This document shows positions 41,836-49,323 of a DNA stretch of 63,910 nucleotides, piece by piece. The notes under the pieces are model-generated. The model was not told the origin of the DNA, ran no database searches, and worked only from the letters and a program-made list of their open reading frames with translations. The stretch comes from Desulfobacula sp. (lineage in GTDB: Bacteria > Desulfobacterota > Desulfobacteria > Desulfobacterales > Desulfobacteraceae). The stretch is from positions 1 to 63,910 of the forward strand of contig NZ_JAUWQB010000008.1 in the NCBI RefSeq assembly GCF_030611305.1, given 5' to 3'. The first letter of the stretch is position 1. Each line of letters starts with the position of its first letter. Both the position numbers and the translations under genes were made by a program.

Positions 41836-42945
41836 ATGATGAATTTCACGAAAGAACAATTATTGGAAATGCTGGCGCAAATCGCGCCCAACCGTTATGT
41901 TCAAGCGGTGTTGATTGTCCTTTTGTTTTTTGCCCTGGCAAAGGTCATGGATGTGATCACCACCAGGGGAATCAAAAGATGGATAGAAAAGACTAGACTC
42001 AAAATAGACGATCAGGTACTTGACATTTTTCACAAGCCCGTCTTTCTCAGTATCATACTCTTTGGCCTTGCCCTGGCCACTGAAAGATTGGAGTTTAAAG
42101 AGATCATAAACTTCATAACCCTGGGTGGCCTGAAAACCGTGGCCATATTTTTGTGGGCAGCTGTTGCAGCACGATTCCTTAAGCTTCTAATCAAACTGGT
42201 GAGTCACGACAAAAGTCGGTTCAGGTTAATACAGGACCAGACGCTGCCGTTGTTCAACAATCTGTTGATTATTCTGGTAACAGGCCTGTCAATTTATATT
42301 ATTTTTCTGGTCTGGAACATTGATCTGACAGCCTGGGTAGCCTCTGCTGGCATAATAGGCCTTGCAATCTCCTTTGCCGCAAAAGACACGTTGGCCAATT
42401 TGTTTTCAGGTGTATTTATCATGGCGGACGCACCCTATAAACTCGGGGATTTCATTGTTCTTGATTCAGGCGAGCGGGGAGCAGTGACGAACATCGGTAT
42501 TCGCAGCACACGTCTTTTAACCCGTGATGATGTGGAAATTACTGTGCCCAATTCAATTATGGGAAATACCAAGATTACCAATGAAGCCGGCGGGAGACAT
42601 GAAAAATTTCGCATCCGTGTCCAGGTGGGAGTCGCTTATGGGTCGGACATTGATAAGGTTCATAAAGTTTTGATTGATGTGGTAGCAAACTTCCCGGATG
42701 TCTGCAAAATTCCTGAGCCGCGCGTGCGGTTCCGCGCCTTTGGAGAATCAAGCCTTGATCATGAATTATTATGCTGGGTAAACAAACCGGTGTTGCGAGG
42801 CAAGGTACTGCACCTGCTTAATACTGCTGTTTATAAAAGGTTTTTAAAAGAAGATATTGAAATACCATTTCCTCAACGGGATGTGCATGTTCGGTCGGCA
42901 TCGGTGGGAAATGCAAGCATTGACTCTTATGAAACTGATCGCTGA
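41836..42945 (+). CDS. Small-conductance mechanosensitive channel (MscS family)
   Basis: 369 residues. Three to four N-terminal helices, the pore-lining helix with AWVASAGIIGLAISFAAKDT then LANLFSGVFIMADAPYKLGD (MscS-domain signature), beta domain IVLDSGERGAVTNIGIRSTRL and VPNSIMGNTKITN, and the C-terminal mixed domain ending PFPQRDVHV. Releases solutes on hypo-osmotic shock (family knowledge). Its last 17 bp overlap the start of the MtgA-like gene. It lies between two segments of related methyltransferase DNA, so it may have been inserted there. Confidence 0.9.
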   Translation: MMNFTKEQLLEMLAQIAPNRYVQAVLIVLLFFALAKVMDVITTRGIKRWIEKTRLKIDDQVLDIFHKPVFLSIILFGLALATERLEFKEIINFITLGGLKTVAIFLWAAVAARFLKLLIKLVSHDKSRFRLIQDQTLPLFNNLLIILVTGLSIYIIFLVWNIDLTAWVASAGIIGLAISFAAKDTLANLFSGVFIMADAPYKLGDFIVLDSGERGAVTNIGIRSTRLLTRDDVEITVPNSIMGNTKITNEAGGRHEKFRIRVQVGVAYGSDIDKVHKVLIDVVANFPDVCKIPEPRVRFRAFGESSLDHELLCWVNKPVLRGKVLHLLNTAVYKRFLKEDIEIPFPQRDVHVRSASVGNASIDSYETDR

Positions 42946-43723
42946 TAATCTTCGTATTACAAAAAAAAGTATTCAGGATGCGCTGACGGGCCGGAACCCC
43001 AAACCCATACAGGAACTTGTGAAGCAGTGTGTGGAAAAAGGGGCGTGGGCCATTGATGTGAACACCGGGCCTTTGGGCAAATCCTCTGAAAAGGGTATGG
43101 CATTTTTCATTGAGGCAGTACAGAGTGTGACAGATCTGCCATTGCTCATTGACACCTCCAATCCTGCTGCCATGAAGGCAGGACTTGAAGCTGCAAACAA
43201 CAAAGCTATTATAAACGGGTTTTCCCTTGAACCCCATAAGCTTGAGAAAATTTTACCCCTTGCAAAAGAGTATGATGCCGATATTGTTGGTTTCCTATTG
43301 TATTCTGACTGCAGGGTGCCAAAGGATGAGGCCCAAAGATTTGAGATTGTCCTTGAGCTGTTTGAGCGGGCTGAAGCGGCGGGAGTTCCAAAATAGCGGA
43401 TTATTATTGATCCGATTGTGCCGCCTTTGGCATGGGAGGACGGTATTGTCCAGGCAAGGGCAGTTCTGAATGTCATCCGGATGTTACCGGATTTATTGGG
43501 TTTCCCCGTGAGGACCATTGCAGGACTTTCCAATCTGACCACAGGGGCAGGGGATAAAAAGAAAAAGAGGCTTATGGAGCAAAGCTATATTGCCATGCTG
43601 GCAGCGGCAGGTCTGGATTATGTTTTGATGGATATTTTGAGTCGGAAAACTGTGAATACAGCCAGGGCTTCCGGCATTCTTGCCAAAGAAGAACTCTTTT
43701 CCTGGGGAATGGTTCCCGGGTAA
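42929..43723 (+). CDS. MtgA-like methyltetrahydrofolate:corrinoid methyltransferase with in-frame UAG
   Basis: 264 codons of a dihydropteroate-synthase-fold methyltransferase (MeTr/MtgA class) that exchanges methyl groups between folate and a corrinoid protein (family knowledge). Blocks: KGAWAIDVNTGPLG, LIDTSNPAAMKAGLEAANNKA, DADIVGFLL, IIIDPIVPPL, and a late RTIAGLSNLTTGAG. The frame is open from ATG 42929 to 43723 except for TAG at 43394-43396 (codon 156), between GVPK and RIIIDP, where relatives typically have a polar residue such as Glu. Either a nonsense mutation (GAG or AAG or CAG to TAG) or pyrrolysine-type read-through. Both flanks look functional. Convergent with the cobT-fusion gene 5 bp away. 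Confidence 0.75.
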
Positions 43724-43728
43724 TGGGC

Positions 43729-45834
43729 TTACTTTATGGATGATCTGGCGACCTTGGCCTCGTCAAAGGATGCCATCTGGCACATGATCTTACAGGCCGC
43801 ATCGGCCATGTCAATAGCAAGTGCGGCGCCTGTGCCTTCACCCAGCCGCATGTCAAAATCAATCAGGGGCACAAGATCCATGTGAGAAAGTGCTGCCATC
43901 TGGGCCTGTTCCACTGATTTGTGACCGGAGATGAGATATTCCTGGATTGCCGGGTTTATGATATAAGCCACAAGTCCCGCTGCCGTTGAGATGACCCCGT
44001 CAAGAACAACGGCCGTTTTTTTCGAGGCTGCTGCAAGAACTGCCCCTGCAATGCCTGCGATTTCAAACCCGCCGATTTTCTGAAGGATCTCAAACCCGTT
44101 GGCAGGATCAATGGTATGGAATGCTAGCGCTCTTTCAATGACCTCGGTTTTGTGGGCCAGCCCCTTGTCATCCACTCCGGTTCCCCTTCCCGTGGCCTGG
44201 GCAGGTGGTATCCCGGTGATGACGCAAGTAATGGCAGAGGCAGAAGTGGTATTGCCGATGCCCATTTCTCCGAGCCCCAATATATCAATAGGATTTTGGT
44301 CATAAGCGTCAAGAAAGGTGGTCATCCCGTTTTCAAGGGCCAGGATCATCTGCTTTTTTGTCATGGCATCTTCAATGGCAAAGTTGCGGGTTCCTTTGGC
44401 TACTTTTTTGATGATCAGTCCGGGATGGGAGTTGAATTCACGACTTACGCCTATGTCCACGACTTTCATGTCTATATCGTGATGGCGGCACAGAACATTG
44501 ATGGCAGCTCCGCCGTTTAAAAAATTATCCACCATTTGGGCTGTTACCTCGGAGGGATAGGCTGAGACACCTTCCTCGGTAATCCCGTGGTCACCTGCAA
44601 ATACAAACAGGTTCTTGTGTTGGATTTCGGGATTGAGATTGTTCTGGATCAGGCTCATCTGGACGGCAAGGTCTTCAATGCGGCCTAGGGCACCCAAGGG
44701 CTTTGTCTTGTTATCAATTTTTGCTGTGGCATCAGCCAGCAGGCTGTCTGACAGGGGGGTGATATTTTCAATCACTTTTCTGCAAAGGCTTTGAGGGGTA
44801 AGGTCATCCAGGCTGATACCAGGGGGTTGGCTCTTTTGTCTTACTTCAGTTAGTGATGTATCAGGCCTAAGGCCAAAATCAAGGATATATTTCAGGTGCT
44901 TCCCGGAAAGCACCTTTGCCATCAATTCCGGGGTTTTTTCAGGTGCAACAATTTCTTCGATCAAAAGTTTAAGCCGGCTTTCATGGGCCTGCATGAAGGG
45001 GAGGGCCTTTTCCATGTGATCTCTTGTCATGCCATAAACGCCGGATACAACGGCTTCCTTGTAGTGTATAAGGTTCAATAGGTTGGTTTCAATGTGTTCG
45101 TTTTTTGAAATCCCGCTGAAAAAGGAAATCTGACCACCCTTACCAACTTTTGCAATGCCCTGACAAAAAGCAATGAAATCTGCACAGGCATTGATCACCA
45201 AATCAAATTCACTCCCATGGGTGTCTTTTAGGCAGGTAATACCGGTTGCCGAAAGAAAGGGTGCAACATGCTTTATTTTTGTTTCATTCTTTTCAATGAT
45301 TAGGGGGACAAGACCCAGGTGCCGGGCATATAGGGCCGTGATCAGCCCCATGGTGCCGGAGCCTAAGATCAGTATCCGGTTATTCTTTTTAAAGAATAAT
45401 TTTTCAAAGGCATTGATGACACATCCAATCGGCTCTGCAAAACAGGCCACATGGGTAGATAGATCATCCGGGATGGGGATCAGGCTTTCTTCGGGCAGGA
45501 CGGCCTTGTCTGCAAATCCGCCGTCCGTATGGAACCCGGTAATTTTCATGTCTTTACAGAGGTTTTCCCGGCCATTTTCGCAAAACTTGCAGACACCGCA
45601 GCTTTTCCCGGGCCAGACAATATAATTTTGGCCGGTTTGATCTTTGACCACCATTTCATGGCCCAGAACTCTTGGAAATACAAGATCCTTGTGGCCCTGT
45701 TCCCACATCTTGGCGTCAGTTCTACAGATGGCGCAGCAAAGGACGTCTGTTTTTACAAATCCCGGTTCAATTTTGTCTGTTTTTAGATCTGGTCTTATTT
45801 CAAGTTTTCTAAGGCCTGTTAATACCATTTTCAT
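43729..45834 (-). CDS. cobT: Fusion: zinc-dependent alcohol dehydrogenase-like domain + CobT
   Basis: 701 residues, one continuous frame. Residues 1-345: medium-chain dehydrogenase with catalytic-zinc Cys37 (ICRTD), GHE at 58-60, structural-zinc cysteines 79, 82, 85 and 93, and NAD-binding GSGTMG at 158-163. Residues ~350-701: CobT (nicotinate-nucleotide:dimethylbenzimidazole phosphoribosyltransferase), which activates the cobamide lower ligand: KPLGALGRIEDLA, FAGDHGITEEGVSAYPSEVT, GEMGIGNTTSASAI, GRGTGVDDKGLAHK and the catalytic Glu in RLGEGTGAA. All zinc and catalytic residues of both halves look intact. Last gene of a cobalamin-riboswitch operon. I know of no described function for this fusion; oxidation or reduction of a lower-ligand precursor is an inference. 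Confidence 0.9.
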   Translation of the reverse strand: MKMVLTGLRKLEIRPDLKTDKIEPGFVKTDVLCCAICRTDAKMWEQGHKDLVFPRVLGHEMVVKDQTGQNYIVWPGKSCGVCKFCENGRENLCKDMKITGFHTDGGFADKAVLPEESLIPIPDDLSTHVACFAEPIGCVINAFEKLFFKKNNRILILGSGTMGLITALYARHLGLVPLIIEKNETKIKHVAPFLSATGITCLKDTHGSEFDLVINACADFIAFCQGIAKVGKGGQISFFSGISKNEHIETNLLNLIHYKEAVVSGVYGMTRDHMEKALPFMQAHESRLKLLIEEIVAPEKTPELMAKVLSGKHLKYILDFGLRPDTSLTEVRQKSQPPGISLDDLTPQSLCRKVIENITPLSDSLLADATAKIDNKTKPLGALGRIEDLAVQMSLIQNNLNPEIQHKNLFVFAGDHGITEEGVSAYPSEVTAQMVDNFLNGGAAINVLCRHHDIDMKVVDIGVSREFNSHPGLIIKKVAKGTRNFAIEDAMTKKQMILALENGMTTFLDAYDQNPIDILGLGEMGIGNTTSASAITCVITGIPPAQATGRGTGVDDKGLAHKTEVIERALAFHTIDPANGFEILQKIGGFEIAGIAGAVLAAASKKTAVVLDGVISTAAGLVAYIINPAIQEYLISGHKSVEQAQMAALSHMDLVPLIDFDMRLGEGTGAALAIDMADAACKIMCQMASFDEAKVARSSIK

Positions 45835-45836
45835 TT

Positions 45837-46037
45837 TTATAGATCCTCTTCCGTAATAACGAGTTTTTTAATGCTGATATTGCAAAATTCTTTTTCTTTT
45901 AGGCGGGATTCATGCTGTTGCACCACATCCATCTGGTCAAAGGGGAATACGCTGGCTTTTTCAAGCCTGACAAGCAGATAATTGTCATCCTTGAACCGGA
46001 TATACTCCCGGTCAGACTTTAAAATAAGAAGTTCCAT
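45837..46037 (-). CDS. 66-residue protein of the cobalamin-riboswitch operon
   Basis: No family recognised. Basic-acidic mixed sequence rich in Lys, Glu and Leu, starting MELLILKSDREYIRFKDD, with a single Cys in EKEFCNISIKK; no signal or membrane helix. It begins 15 bp after the TrpD-like gene ends and stops 2 bp before the dehydrogenase-CobT fusion, so it is very likely translated. Its position suggests a small accessory subunit. Confidence 0.65.
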   Translation of the reverse strand: MELLILKSDREYIRFKDDNYLLVRLEKASVFPFDQMDVVQQHESRLKEKEFCNISIKKLVITEEDL

Positions 46038-46052
46038 TTTATGCCACCTGTT

Positions 46053-47156
46053 TTATTGTACTAAACTGTGAAGTTTTTTTAAGCCCATTTCCGGGTCTGT
46101 GTTCTGTGCTTCTACCCATTTTTCAAGGGTTTGAAAGGCTGTACCTTTTTCCAGGAGTTTTGCGGCCTGCTCAATCCCGTCTTCAAGGTTTGTCGCCCGA
46201 TCTGCTGCCAGGAAAATCAATCCTGCATTGAGCAGCGCGGCATCTTTTCTGGCGCTGTTTTCTCTGTTGTTTAAAAGGGCGGCAAACCGTTTTGATTCTG
46301 TCTCGATATCTTTTTCAGGCGACAGATCCTTACCATTCTTCACTGAAAGGCCAAGTTTTTTCGGGTCAATGGTAAATTCATTGATCCCATCCTTTTCAGA
46401 GATTCGCGCACAATGGGTGATTCCGCAGACCGAGGCTTCATCCATGCCCTTGTTTGATTCATCAATAGAACCGTGCAAGACAATGGCACTTTTGTAGCCG
46501 ATTTCTTCCATGACATTTGCCACGGGCAGGATTACCTTTTTTGAATAAACGCCTCTAACTCCGATGGAAGGAAGGGCAGGGTTGGCTAAAGATGCCGCAA
46601 TATTAAGGGTTGACCCGAAATAAATCTGGGACAGGATGCGGCCTAAGGCCATGGGGTGAATATGGGGGCTCATACCGTTGAAAAGGCCAAGACCGGCGGT
46701 TTCAATGCTTTTGACAACAAGGTCTGCAGTACATTCCACATCAACGCCCAGGGCCTCTGCCATATCCACGGTTCCGCAAACAGAGGTAATGGCCCGGGCA
46801 CCGTGCCTTGCCATGGGGATACCGCCTGCAGCGGCAATAATGGAGGCTGCCGTACTGATGTTGAATGTTTTAAAGGTGTCCATACCAGTGCCGCTGTTAT
46901 CAACGGTTTTGATTTCACTTTTTAAGTTCACCTTTGTGGTGTCAAGATCATAGATAGCTTCCCATGAGCCTGCAACTTCTTTTTTTGTTTCTCCCTTGGC
47001 TGTCAGGGCTGCCAAAAAAGCGCCTTGCTGCATGTCTGTGATGTCATTGTTTAAAACAGATGCAAAGCTTTTTTTTGCTTCATTTCTGGTGAGATTTTCT
47101 TTCTGGATGAGGCGGGTGATAATTGCGCCAAATTCCCTGTTTGATGTCTGGGACAT
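46053..47156 (-). CDS. TrpD-like phosphoribosyltransferase under B12 riboswitch control
   Basis: 367 residues with the TrpD/nucleoside-phosphorylase class III fold: helical domain 1-70, then DNSGTGMDTFKTFNIST (86-102), MARHGARAITSVCGTVDMAEALG (116-138), and GRILSQIYFGSTLNIAASLANPALP. Key motifs differ from anthranilate phosphoribosyltransferase: GTGGD is GTGMD, KHGNR is RHGAR, SGSAD is CGTVD, and the Arg of the NPARPTRQ anthranilate pocket is replaced. No other tryptophan genes are near. With the cobalamin riboswitch upstream and CobT downstream it more likely acts on a cobamide lower ligand or precursor than in tryptophan synthesis (inference). Confidence 0.8.
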   Translation of the reverse strand: MSQTSNREFGAIITRLIQKENLTRNEAKKSFASVLNNDITDMQQGAFLAALTAKGETKKEVAGSWEAIYDLDTTKVNLKSEIKTVDNSGTGMDTFKTFNISTAASIIAAAGGIPMARHGARAITSVCGTVDMAEALGVDVECTADLVVKSIETAGLGLFNGMSPHIHPMALGRILSQIYFGSTLNIAASLANPALPSIGVRGVYSKKVILPVANVMEEIGYKSAIVLHGSIDESNKGMDEASVCGITHCARISEKDGINEFTIDPKKLGLSVKNGKDLSPEKDIETESKRFAALLNNRENSARKDAALLNAGLIFLAADRATNLEDGIEQAAKLLEKGTAFQTLEKWVEAQNTDPEMGLKKLHSLVQ

Positions 47157-47231
47157 AATATAATACCTCTTGAATAAAAATATTCCTATTCAACAGGATC
47201 TTGTTCCAGCAGAGAATCCTAAAATTTTGCA

Positions 47232-47430
47232 TTAAGGCAGGCTTTCCGACTTACGGATCATCCTAATCACTGCGTCTTCCCCTTTTTAAAAGAGTGACCT
47301 AGTGCAGTTTTCGTCCCCGATCACGGCAATGGCTGGCATGTGACGGACTTGCACCGTCTTTCCTTTTACCTTGGGGTTTGAACCATGAAAAACCCCAGCA
47401 CCTTTATACCTGGCAAAAGGTTATACCTCG
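47232..47430 (-). promoter_or_regulatory. Cobalamin riboswitch (B12-box element)
   Basis: On the minus strand it holds AAAGGTGCTGGGG near the 5' end, the core GGTGCAAGTCCGTCAC (complement of about 47343-47358) with GCCAGCC, and a B12 box AGTCGGAAAGCCTGCC (complement of 47236-47251). All three are hallmarks of adenosylcobalamin riboswitches. It ends 76 bp before the TrpD-like start codon, so it should repress that operon when cobamide is plentiful. The boundaries are approximate to ~20 bp. Confidence 0.92.
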
Positions 47431-47460: not shown

Positions 47461-47502
47461 CCATCATTTTTCAGCAGGTCGAAAGCAATTAACTGAAAAT
47501 GG
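47461..47502 (-). terminator. Terminator after the DMT exporter gene
   Basis: On the minus strand CCATTTTCAG pairs with CTGAAAAATG-A-TGG (one bulge), followed by TTTTTTATT. It spans the exporter's stop codon (47489) and ends the upstream MaoC-DMT unit before the riboswitch. Confidence 0.5.
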
Positions 47503-48376
47503 TCAGGCAGGCGCCGGTTAGTGCCAGAAGTATGGCAATGGTTTTGTTCACGGTGATTTTTTCCTTCAGGAAAACAGCGGCCAGGATGAAGATGAAAATC
47601 GTGGACATCTGGTTCAGAATAGCTGCCCGGGATGCGGTTGTATATTTCATTCCTGCCACCCAGCAGAGCAGTGCCAGATAATTTCCCGTAATAGAGGCGG
47701 GAAGGGCAATGAACCAGGCCTTTGAAAATTTGAGTTCCCTGAAGTATTGTTTCCGTTTGGGGTGGAATAAGATAAGGACCAACAGGGATACCGTTGCTGC
47801 CGTTACCCGGACAAGGGTTGCCCAGAAGACATCGGTCCGTTCCAACAGCTCTTTTATCATCACAATGCCGGCAGCCAGAAAGAACATGGAAAGACAGCCA
47901 ATAATAATGCCGGATAACGGGCTTTTGTTTCCCGGGGTTTCACCGGGCGCCTTTTTTCTTTTCATTGAGCCCACAAGAACGGCTGTAAGTACCAGGAGGC
48001 CGCCGATAATGGCACCGGCACTTAACTTTTCTCCCAGCAGGATAAAAGAAAAAAAGATCACGCTGGGAAGATAGAGGCATTCCACAATGGCAACAAGGCC
48101 GGCACCAAGACGGTTTAAGGCGATGAAAAAGAAAAGATCTGCCAGGGTAATCCCTAGAAAGCCTGATACTGCCAGCAGCAGCCAGTCATTGATGGGCTTG
48201 TCCGGGAAAAACGGGATATCCAGGATTACCATGGTCAGGGAGACCAGGATCAATGCTACAAAACTTTTATAGATATTCAGAGAAATAGGGGAAAATACTT
48301 CACCACTTTTTTTGAACATGATCACAGCACTGGCCCAAAAAAAGGCCGATAAAAGTGATAATATGGAACCCAGCAT
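47489..48376 (-). CDS. EamA/DMT-family transporter
   Basis: 295 residues, ten predicted helices in two EamA repeats. N-terminal MLGSILSLLSAFFWASAVIMFKKSGE; second repeat from about residue 150 (GIIIGCLSMFFLAAGIVMIKELLE). C-terminal ILAAVFLKEKITVNKTIAILLALTGACL is the standard EamA ending. Substrate unknown. Lies 5 bp after the MaoC-like gene on the same strand; whether it belongs functionally with the cobamide genes beyond is not clear, since a terminator separates them. Confidence 0.88.
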   Translation of the reverse strand: MLGSILSLLSAFFWASAVIMFKKSGEVFSPISLNIYKSFVALILVSLTMVILDIPFFPDKPINDWLLLAVSGFLGITLADLFFFIALNRLGAGLVAIVECLYLPSVIFFSFILLGEKLSAGAIIGGLLVLTAVLVGSMKRKKAPGETPGNKSPLSGIIIGCLSMFFLAAGIVMIKELLERTDVFWATLVRVTAATVSLLVLILFHPKRKQYFRELKFSKAWFIALPASITGNYLALLCWVAGMKYTTASRAAILNQMSTIFIFILAAVFLKEKITVNKTIAILLALTGACLTIFS

Positions 48377-48381
48377 AGCGA

Positions 48382-49323
48382 TTAGCCTTGATATTTGTTA
48401 AAAAGCCTTCCCTTTAGATGGGGAATGCCTTTTTGTTCATCCCGAAGTTCAAAAATAATAATGGCCGGGTTGTTTTCTGTATCGTTTTGACGTTCATACC
48501 CTAAAGCAGCTGTTGCCGGCATGAAAATCGGCAGCTTGAATGCTGCTTCAATGGTGGCAGAATCGCGAATACCAAATTCCCTGTCAAGGCTTGCAATAAC
48601 CCGTGCAAGACTCCACATGCCGTGGGCAATGGCTTTTTTGAATCCAAAAAGTTTTGCCAGAAGAGTGTAGAGATGATGGGGATTGTAATCCCCTGAGACT
48701 ACTGCATATTTTCTGCCGGTATCAGCCGGCACAAAGAAGGTCTCTTTTTTTGTTAAAATGGTTTCGTCTTTTTTTTGTACCCCTTTTTTTTTTACATGAC
48801 TTTTGGTAAAAAAGGTTGAGGTGCCCTGCCAGACAACCTGACCGCCGGATATGACTTCCAGAGTAAAACCGGTTTCAAGCCCTTTCTCGGTTTTTTTAAT
48901 ACTTTCAAGTGTGCAGGCAAGATCAAGGGTTTCATGGGTTGCCACAGATCTTTTCTGCTCAAAAGATTGAAATATCTGGATCAGCCCCAATGGATTAATG
49001 GGAAAAAAAGAAGATGTAATAAATTTGCCCAGAAGGCCAATAAAGAGTGTTTGCAAATAGGATATGGGGATGATATCGGGTCTGTCTTCTGAAAAGCCGC
49101 AGACGGTTCTGTAATTCGTAATCAGCTCTTTATCCGGCAAATAATTTTTTAAAATAATTCGGGTTTTTTTAACAATAACGTTATCTTTAATCGTATTGGA
49201 GCGAAAAGGAGAAATCAAAAATGCTTTGAGAAAAACAAATCCCATGGAGGGGCACTTTTTTAGTTCCACGACAGTTTCAGGAACTGCCAGTGCTATCTGC
49301 TTGATAGATTGATCATTTTTCAT
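48382..49323 (-). CDS. MaoC-like hot-dog hydratase/dehydratase
   Basis: 313 residues, a double hot-dog protein. The C-terminal half carries the hydratase-2 motif YAVVSGDYNPHHLYTLLAKLFGFKKAIAHGMWSLA, with the Asp/His pair of R-specific enoyl-CoA hydratases. The N-terminal half has only a degenerate fold (SYLQTLFIGLLGKFITSSFFPINPLG). Probably acts on acyl-CoA or a related thioester. Related double-domain proteins are annotated in fatty-acid or polyketide contexts. First gene of a pair with the DMT exporter. Confidence 0.82.
   Translation of the reverse strand: MKNDQSIKQIALAVPETVVELKKCPSMGFVFLKAFLISPFRSNTIKDNVIVKKTRIILKNYLPDKELITNYRTVCGFSEDRPDIIPISYLQTLFIGLLGKFITSSFFPINPLGLIQIFQSFEQKRSVATHETLDLACTLESIKKTEKGLETGFTLEVISGGQVVWQGTSTFFTKSHVKKKGVQKKDETILTKKETFFVPADTGRKYAVVSGDYNPHHLYTLLAKLFGFKKAIAHGMWSLARVIASLDREFGIRDSATIEAAFKLPIFMPATAALGYERQNDTENNPAIIIFELRDEQKGIPHLKGRLFNKYQG

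Follow-up and report, generated by a model that had tools for sequence, protein, structure and literature searches.

A cobalamin riboswitch-controlled module of a TrpD-like phosphoribosyltransferase and a zinc dehydrogenase with a proposed role in supplying the lower ligand of cobamides in anaerobes

We analysed a 63,910-nucleotide stretch of DNA from Desulfobacula sp. (contig NZ_JAUWQB010000008.1; hereafter the window), in which a cobalamin riboswitch precedes genes for a TrpD-like phosphoribosyltransferase, a 66-residue protein and a zinc dehydrogenase fused to CobT. We propose, with a probability of about 0.6, that this operon is one form of a widespread B12-controlled module of anaerobes that would supply or ready the lower ligand of cobamides, by a chemistry that we infer. 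It is very probable that the module belongs to the metabolism of the cobamide nucleotide loop. An earlier reading of the letters of the window (the original prediction) had suggested that the cell makes or remodels an unusual lower ligand, the dehydrogenase and the TrpD-like protein preparing a base or a ribosylated intermediate for activation by CobT. This order of steps agrees with the results but is, like the unusual ligand, conjectural. A cobamide module is supported by the results below, but CobT as part of its core is not, because Firmicutes encode the other two proteins without CobT alongside.

A riboswitch followed by three tightly spaced genes

The aptamer at 47219–47420, on the minus strand like the whole operon, scored 78.1 bits with the full RF00174 model in cmscan (E = 1.6e-17) against a gathering score of 31.5, which identifies it as a cobalamin riboswitch; it is the sole Rfam match at gathering score within the window. 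It is followed by the gene for the TrpD-like protein, which is of the GTGMD type with an acceptor site unlike that of TrpD (46053–47156; 367 residues), the gene for the 66-residue conserved partner protein, not assigned to a family (45837–46037), and the dehydrogenase–CobT fusion gene (43729–45834; 701 residues). The gaps of 15 nt and 2 nt between them bear out the tight spacing originally described. This gene order is not due to chance, as the TrpD-like, small and dehydrogenase–CobT genes were seen again in many relatives. The leader past the aptamer pairs with part of the ribosome site and the start codon and is more stable than all 200 shuffled sequences (z = −3.24), which suggests translational control by the riboswitch. 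The genome (G000; 97.4% complete, 159 contigs) contains three RF00174 sites including that of the module. Inspection by eye of the other two, on C99 or C73 (L001, L002), placed one near a contig end by ABC-transporter-like genes and the remaining one ahead of a TonB-receptor-like gene.

A TrpD-like protein with a changed acceptor site

The TrpD-like protein was matched by PF00591 (167.7 bits) and by the NCBIfam TrpD model TIGR01245 (246 bits versus a trusted cutoff of 199). Its AlphaFold model, with a predicted local distance difference test (pLDDT) value of 90.9, has the class IV fold and aligned with TrpD (9ucw) at template-modelling (TM) scores of 0.81/0.93; D239 and E240 of the DE metal motif are invariant. 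GTGGD is the signature of TrpD for phosphoribosyl pyrophosphate (PRPP) in the passages of PMC5537072 on which we draw, and KHGN and an arginine of helix 8 hold anthranilate, the arginine by its carboxylate, according to passages of PMC5537072 and PMC9835598. The module protein departs from TrpD in both motifs, with GTGMD (all 27 aligned sequences have M92) in place of GTGGD and RHGA (R117–A120; A120 in at least 90%) in place of KHGN. The position of the helix-8 arginine, R193 in Mycobacterium tuberculosis, is taken by an invariant leucine, L175, in a register that is uncertain because the invariant R173, two residues away, adjoins an alignment gap. From these residues, we read the protein as a putative PRPP enzyme with an acceptor other than anthranilate, and synthesis of phosphoribosyl-anthranilate appears very unlikely. 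Because the NCBIfam cutoff is nevertheless exceeded, annotation by this model can count the protein as a tryptophan enzyme, which it probably is not. The Desulfobacula genome encodes one other PF00591 protein, a canonical TrpD with GTGGD and KHGN intact, in a trpEGDCF operon (genes named by eye). Second TrpD matches in G065, G073 and G085, among the genomes compared below, have no dehydrogenase beside them and look like ordinary TrpD, judging from their first 75 residues. On plasmids, we found no close copy (best TrpD match, 33%).

The 66-residue protein

The 66-residue protein gave no match in Pfam or NCBIfam at E 0.01 and none in Pfam at E up to 1, and other members of its family gave scattered weak Pfam matches (best E 0.026, for two members). 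Two matches over 23 residues in a sequence search of the PDB (E 0.005–0.006) we take for chance. The model has a confident fold (pLDDT 96.2) with the order strand-strand-strand-strand-helix-strand, and a fold search with it returned no match (best E 0.67).

The dehydrogenase–CobT fusion

The third gene joins a zinc dehydrogenase to CobT, as originally predicted. Fusion residues 1–320 (44875–45834) constitute an NAD/zinc medium-chain dehydrogenase domain, matched by ADH_N (PF08240) with 48.0 bits and by ADH_zinc_N (PF00107) with 25.7 bits, under the cutoff of 31.8. C37, H59, C79, C82, C85, C93, G158, G160 and G163, which we take to be the catalytic and structural zinc-ligand positions and the GxGxxG glycines of the nucleotide motif, do not vary among the 10 dehydrogenases aligned, and so the dehydrogenase should be active. 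The domain scored under every listed NCBIfam dehydrogenase cutoff.

The CobT domain comprises approximately residues 352–698 (43741–44781). It was matched over residues 358–695 by DBI_PRT/CobT (PF02277; 431.1 bits) and, as a CobT equivalog, by TIGR03160 (433.5 bits versus a cutoff of 319.3), and it aligns with solved CobT and ArsA structures. Its LGEGTGA lines up with Thermus CobT, including the catalytic glutamate of the GEG motif. For a CobT tree, we excluded rows shorter than 300 residues or with stops as well as identical rows, the last step reducing 134 rows to 78, and before building we also removed alternate fused rows in order of name (28 of 57). In the tree, the fused CobTs grouped with three unfused ones in a branch of modest support (91/74), and four BzaF-linked CobTs together with one further CobT formed a separate branch (100/100). 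Genome G001 carries, besides the full fusion, a second CobT fragment (C137:48373–48711) with 82% identity to fusion residues 589–701.

Distribution and core of the module

Among 97 genomes including that of Desulfobacula, the full fusion recurs at 58–87% identity, and a TrpD-like protein, counted where identity was at least 47% across 230 residues or more, was found in 36, the module genomes. Outside the 36 fall G002, which has the fusion and whose TrpD lies beyond the contig end, and G088, with 77 residues only. G058, G069, G072 and G091 encode the three enzymes as separate genes, with the dehydrogenase first, the TrpD-like protein second and CobT last. A tblastn scan of GTDB yielded 315 stretches, some possibly ordinary TrpD, of which the best 80 (53–91% identity) were kept. 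Most of these 80 loci are from Desulfobacterota. Others are from Firmicutes, such as Desulfosporosinus lacus and Pelotomaculum, and a few from elsewhere, including L134 and L148, which are labelled Bacteroidota. A dehydrogenase lies within 2 kb of the TrpD-like gene in 72 of the 80, with CobT in the same frame in 51 of the 72, and five of the eight loci without a dehydrogenase are cut off by the end of the contig at TrpD or shortly after it. The set is thus not restricted to one strain. The gene for the 66-residue protein is present in 44 of the 80 loci. The next most widespread cluster of open reading frames beyond the three families occurs in only 14, so that no fourth constant partner was seen.

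Rfam scans covered 42 module loci, a subset of those fetched. In 37 of them, all ten Firmicutes loci included, RF00174 was found upstream at a distance of up to about 400 nt; the remaining five are L061, L106, L110, L134 (operon-internal) and L067, whose contig begins 187 nt before the module. None of three comparison loci had it (L071 and L073, with a different TrpD, and L074, a lone dehydrogenase). In L071 (6348–8453) and L073 (3953–6257), a sister dehydrogenase–TrpD pair carries GTGSD, with no CobT seen nearby; we rejected these pairs as members of the module because GTGSD marks a different branch and a riboswitch is lacking.

The Firmicutes form consists of riboswitch, dehydrogenase and TrpD in 10 of 10 loci (L129, L145, L152, L153, L155, L157, L160 and L192–L194, the last three from the order of D. 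lacus). The family profile of the 66-residue protein found a member downstream of TrpD in six of the ten, that of L155 about 600 nt further away. No CobT lies alongside the pair within the fetched stretches of these ten loci, and CobT is encoded elsewhere in five of the seven Firmicutes module genomes searched. Because the pair stands alone under its own riboswitch, we take the dehydrogenase and the TrpD-like protein, often with the small protein, as the B12-regulated core, to which CobT does not belong.

By gene names assigned by eye, L066, L068 and L072 have cobamide genes near the module, and in L134 (6001–10374), from a metagenome-assembled genome (MAG) labelled Salinivirgaceae, the module lies within a cobamide cluster. 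There, a second, distant CobT comes after the module inside the cluster. Such a fusion with a further CobT side by side was found only in L134 among the 80 loci and is reminiscent of the two-subunit ArsAB.

Cobamide genes in Desulfobacula and the module genomes

The Desulfobacula genome encodes one CobT (PF02277), namely the fusion, and so no ArsAB pair. The original prediction had named as grounds for abandoning it a tryptophan operon together with a standard cobT elsewhere and a set confined to one strain; the operon is present, but the set occurs in many relatives and the genome has no other cobT, and thus this refutation fails. No PF01964 protein was found in the genome, which therefore has neither ThiC nor BzaF, and no bza pathway of the BzaAB or BzaF kind. 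BluB (TIGR02476) exceeded the cutoff of 150 bits in none of the 97 genomes, in a search that 3 of 14 controls passed. CbiD, which marks synthesis of the corrin ring, is encoded once in the genome, and PF04095, the usual nicotinate enzyme, has no match there. Across the set, CbiD was found in 31 of 36 module genomes (in G014 and G092 as fragments) compared with 31 of 61 others (Fisher p = 0.0004, uncorrected for kinship).

A second CobT adjoins a ThiC-like protein of BzaF type in 14 of the 36 module genomes. Two such CobT-paired proteins gave a ThiC score with BzaB below cutoff, and the name BzaF comes from the pairing with CobT. In the other 22 module genomes, PF01964 was absent in ten, represented only by ThiC-scoring proteins away from CobT in seven, and ambiguous in five. 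The ten comprise four incomplete MAGs (68–83%) and G000, G001, G008, G014, G028 and G093, which are 93–100% complete.

Proposed mechanism

In the mechanism we propose, scarcity of cobamides would lead the riboswitch to permit expression of the module. The TrpD-like protein would move a phosphoribosyl group between PRPP and a non-anthranilate acceptor, the NAD/zinc dehydrogenase would act on the same series of substrates, and the 66-residue protein would be a partner of both. The module would yield or ready a base, which CobT, here fused to the dehydrogenase, would convert into the alpha-ribotide for the nucleotide loop. The sequence of PRPP plus acceptor, oxidation and CobT is a guess. What the sequences show is the gene content, the linkage and the fusion, riboswitches ahead of the module in several phyla, the altered acceptor residues, and in Desulfobacula the lack of BzaF/ThiC and of BluB over cutoff; the lower ligand as product, the order of the steps and all substrates are what we infer.

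A more tentative idea, to which we give rather less than even odds, is that the TrpD-like protein and the dehydrogenase make up a third lower-ligand route besides BluB and Bza, one independent of oxygen, for a base without an assigned pathway or an uncatalogued one. Carbon 1 of the PRPP ribose would then become the imidazole carbon, and the dehydrogenase would set up the loss of the remaining sugar; in the BluB reaction, a ribityl carbon becomes the imidazole carbon. As leads only, we name 5-methylbenzimidazole, which Desulfobacterium autotrophicum makes, and the base of the native cobamide of Dehalobacter strain CF. 5-Methylbenzimidazole is listed as a natural cobamide ligand in the part of PMC8123684 used here and falls outside the four bases assigned to bza genes in the corresponding part of PMC6461909. 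We discarded the purinyl cobamide of Desulfitobacterium hafniense as a clue, the purine having come from yeast extract (PMC6389850, in the section drawn upon).

A possible link to Dehalobacter

G156, a candidate for Dehalobacter strain DCA, has the dehydrogenase–TrpD pair under a riboswitch (L194, 5905–8453) with a small-protein match behind the pair, and G157, taken as D. restrictus PER-K23, has an ordinary TrpD match only and no module. Reductive dehalogenases gave three and four matches in G156 and G157, one each over cutoff, versus 17 and 25 published; the search missed most of them in G157 too, and the count does not confirm either name. A complete corrinoid pathway in strains DCA and CF and a truncated gene in PER-K23 are described in the excerpt of PMC4751268 on which we rely, and five riboswitch operons of PER-K23 in that of PMC4285132, where the dehydrogenase–TrpD pair is not among them. 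The native cobamide of strain CF, a sister of DCA, is reported to match no known cobamide (PMC11348799, in the portion consulted). If CF carries the module, as its sister appears to, this would be a way into a structurally unsolved cofactor of chloroform-respiring bacteria.

Observations against a lower-ligand module and rival explanations

Several observations weigh against the module as a lower-ligand supplier. The 14 module genomes with a BzaF-type neighbour of a second CobT are one, and the module and BzaF show no anti-association (Fisher p = 0.27). Five of the 36 module genomes (G008, G058, G069, G091 and G093) gave no CbiD match, and so the module probably serves salvaged corrinoids there. 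L133, L143 and L144 have TrpD and the small gene without a dehydrogenase at the locus; the L143 genome has CobT elsewhere in a 711-residue frame, which fits an unlinked fusion. In the Desulfosporosinus order, that of D. lacus, the TrpD-like protein occurs in only 6 of 73 genomes. The L071/L073 pair of the other TrpD type has no riboswitch, and hence pairing of a TrpD with a dehydrogenase does not by itself imply service to cobamides. The Firmicutes and L066/L068 dehydrogenases share only 31–35% identity with the fused one, compared with 38% for that of L071, and may therefore not be a single lineage, recruitment having perhaps occurred more than once. Lastly, the CobTs of L066–L068, with the unfused order, fall outside the fused-CobT branch, so that the module goes with CobTs of more than one lineage.

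Several rival explanations were weighed. CobT consumes a ribotide and frees nicotinate, and the TrpD-like protein might make or recycle nicotinate mononucleotide or another ribotide for it, with the base coming from elsewhere. We consider such donor supply unlikely, although the CobT fusion has a PRPP-type enzyme linked to it and Desulfobacula has no PF04095 match: with weak matches counted, 20 of the 36 module genomes have PF04095, as do 32 of the other 61 (Fisher p = 0.83), so that the usual nicotinate enzyme is not replaced, and the dehydrogenase is left unexplained. Replacement of nicotinate phosphoribosyltransferase by the module was rejected on this lack of association, and replacement of BzaF on the lack of anti-association (Fisher p = 0.27). 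It is likewise improbable that the TrpD-like protein frees a purine-like base from a nucleotide for alteration by the dehydrogenase and attachment by CobT. To our knowledge, plain purine cobamides need no dedicated genes, and the TrpD-like protein of L157, though weakly like AMP (adenosine monophosphate) phosphorylase (64.7 bits), has its strong match with TrpD (271 bits). The 42% of predicted producers without known ligand genes, which may use purines (PMC6461909, in the part used here), speak for this explanation.

Remodelling of imported cobamides, in which salvagers would swap the lower ligand of scavenged corrinoids, agrees with the five CbiD-free module genomes, but we regard it as quite improbable given the enrichment of CbiD among module genomes noted above, with kinship uncorrected; furthermore, the corrinoid auxotroph D. 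restrictus (G157) lacks the module that G156, the candidate for the autotroph DCA, has. A role in the linker branch, with a threonine-dehydrogenase-like protein making aminopropanol and the TrpD-like protein incidental, is very improbable. The closest named relatives of the L157 dehydrogenase by score are indeed threonine dehydrogenases (224 bits versus a cutoff of 458), but L068, L072 and L134 have a gene close to the module that we named by eye as that of CobD, the enzyme for the normal linker, and across the module loci compared, the TrpD-like protein is conserved better than the dehydrogenase. That the protein is an ordinary TrpD making phosphoribosyl-anthranilate is scarcely credible despite its TIGR01245 score: the anthranilate-binding residues are changed and fixed, and the context is a cobalamin riboswitch and CobT rather than tryptophan. 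Together with the trpEGDCF operon elsewhere in Desulfobacula, whose TrpD keeps the canonical motifs, the changed residues led us to reject a tryptophan enzyme. We thus retain supply or readying of the lower ligand as the preferred reading.

Genomic neighbourhood

The neighbours scanned encode an MscS channel, a pterin-binding methyltransferase, an EamA transporter and a MaoC-domain protein. No other cobamide synthesis gene was found among these neighbours, in agreement with the original prediction, in a window that was not annotated as a whole. The pterin-binding methyltransferase gene (MtrH/AcsE type; 42857–43723, plus strand) contains TAG in frame as codon 180, a position occupied by Glu in three relatives; this is probably a nonsense change. 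Clusters resembling, by eye, the upstream EamA transporter and MaoC-domain protein (47489–49323, minus strand) recur in 12 and 10 of the 80 loci, respectively, which is likely synteny only.

Significance and comparison with known systems

Which bacteria are able to make use of a cobamide depends in part on its lower ligand, and in one genomic survey this ligand was not assignable for 42% of predicted cobamide producers (PMC6461909, in the part used here). The module is a testable candidate for part of this gap among sulfate reducers and in some members of Firmicutes and Bacteroidota. The original prediction knew of no described pathway with this gene set, and we found no description of it among the open-licence papers listed, subscription papers being outside the search; PMC12452182 and PMC8620254, which came up in it, deal with other subjects.

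The TrpD-like protein shares with anthranilate phosphoribosyltransferase TrpD the fold, the metal motif and most of the PRPP site, but GTGGD is replaced by GTGMD, KHGN by RHGA, and the conserved helix-8 arginine is replaced as well. With the threonine and polyol zinc dehydrogenases, the module dehydrogenase has the zinc ligands and the nucleotide-binding motif in common, whereas it scores under the NCBIfam cutoffs and is fused to CobT in one branch. ArsAB, which activates phenols, needs two CobT homologues. ArsA is among the solved relatives of the module CobT domain, third by score, but Desulfobacula has a single CobT homologue. BluB, the aerobic synthase of 5,6-dimethylbenzimidazole, supplies a lower ligand to CobT, as we propose for the module; it is an oxygen-dependent flavin enzyme, and none over cutoff was found in Desulfobacula. 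The bza operon with its BzaF–CobT pairing, for benzimidazole synthesis without oxygen, resembles the module in occurring in anaerobes and in being paired with CobT, and it supplies the lower ligand, the role proposed for the module. In contrast to the module, it uses a ThiC-like radical enzyme, of which Desulfobacula has none, and the four BzaF-linked CobTs sampled branch separately. We rate the module as like bluB, bza and arsAB in its proposed role and unlike them in its parts.

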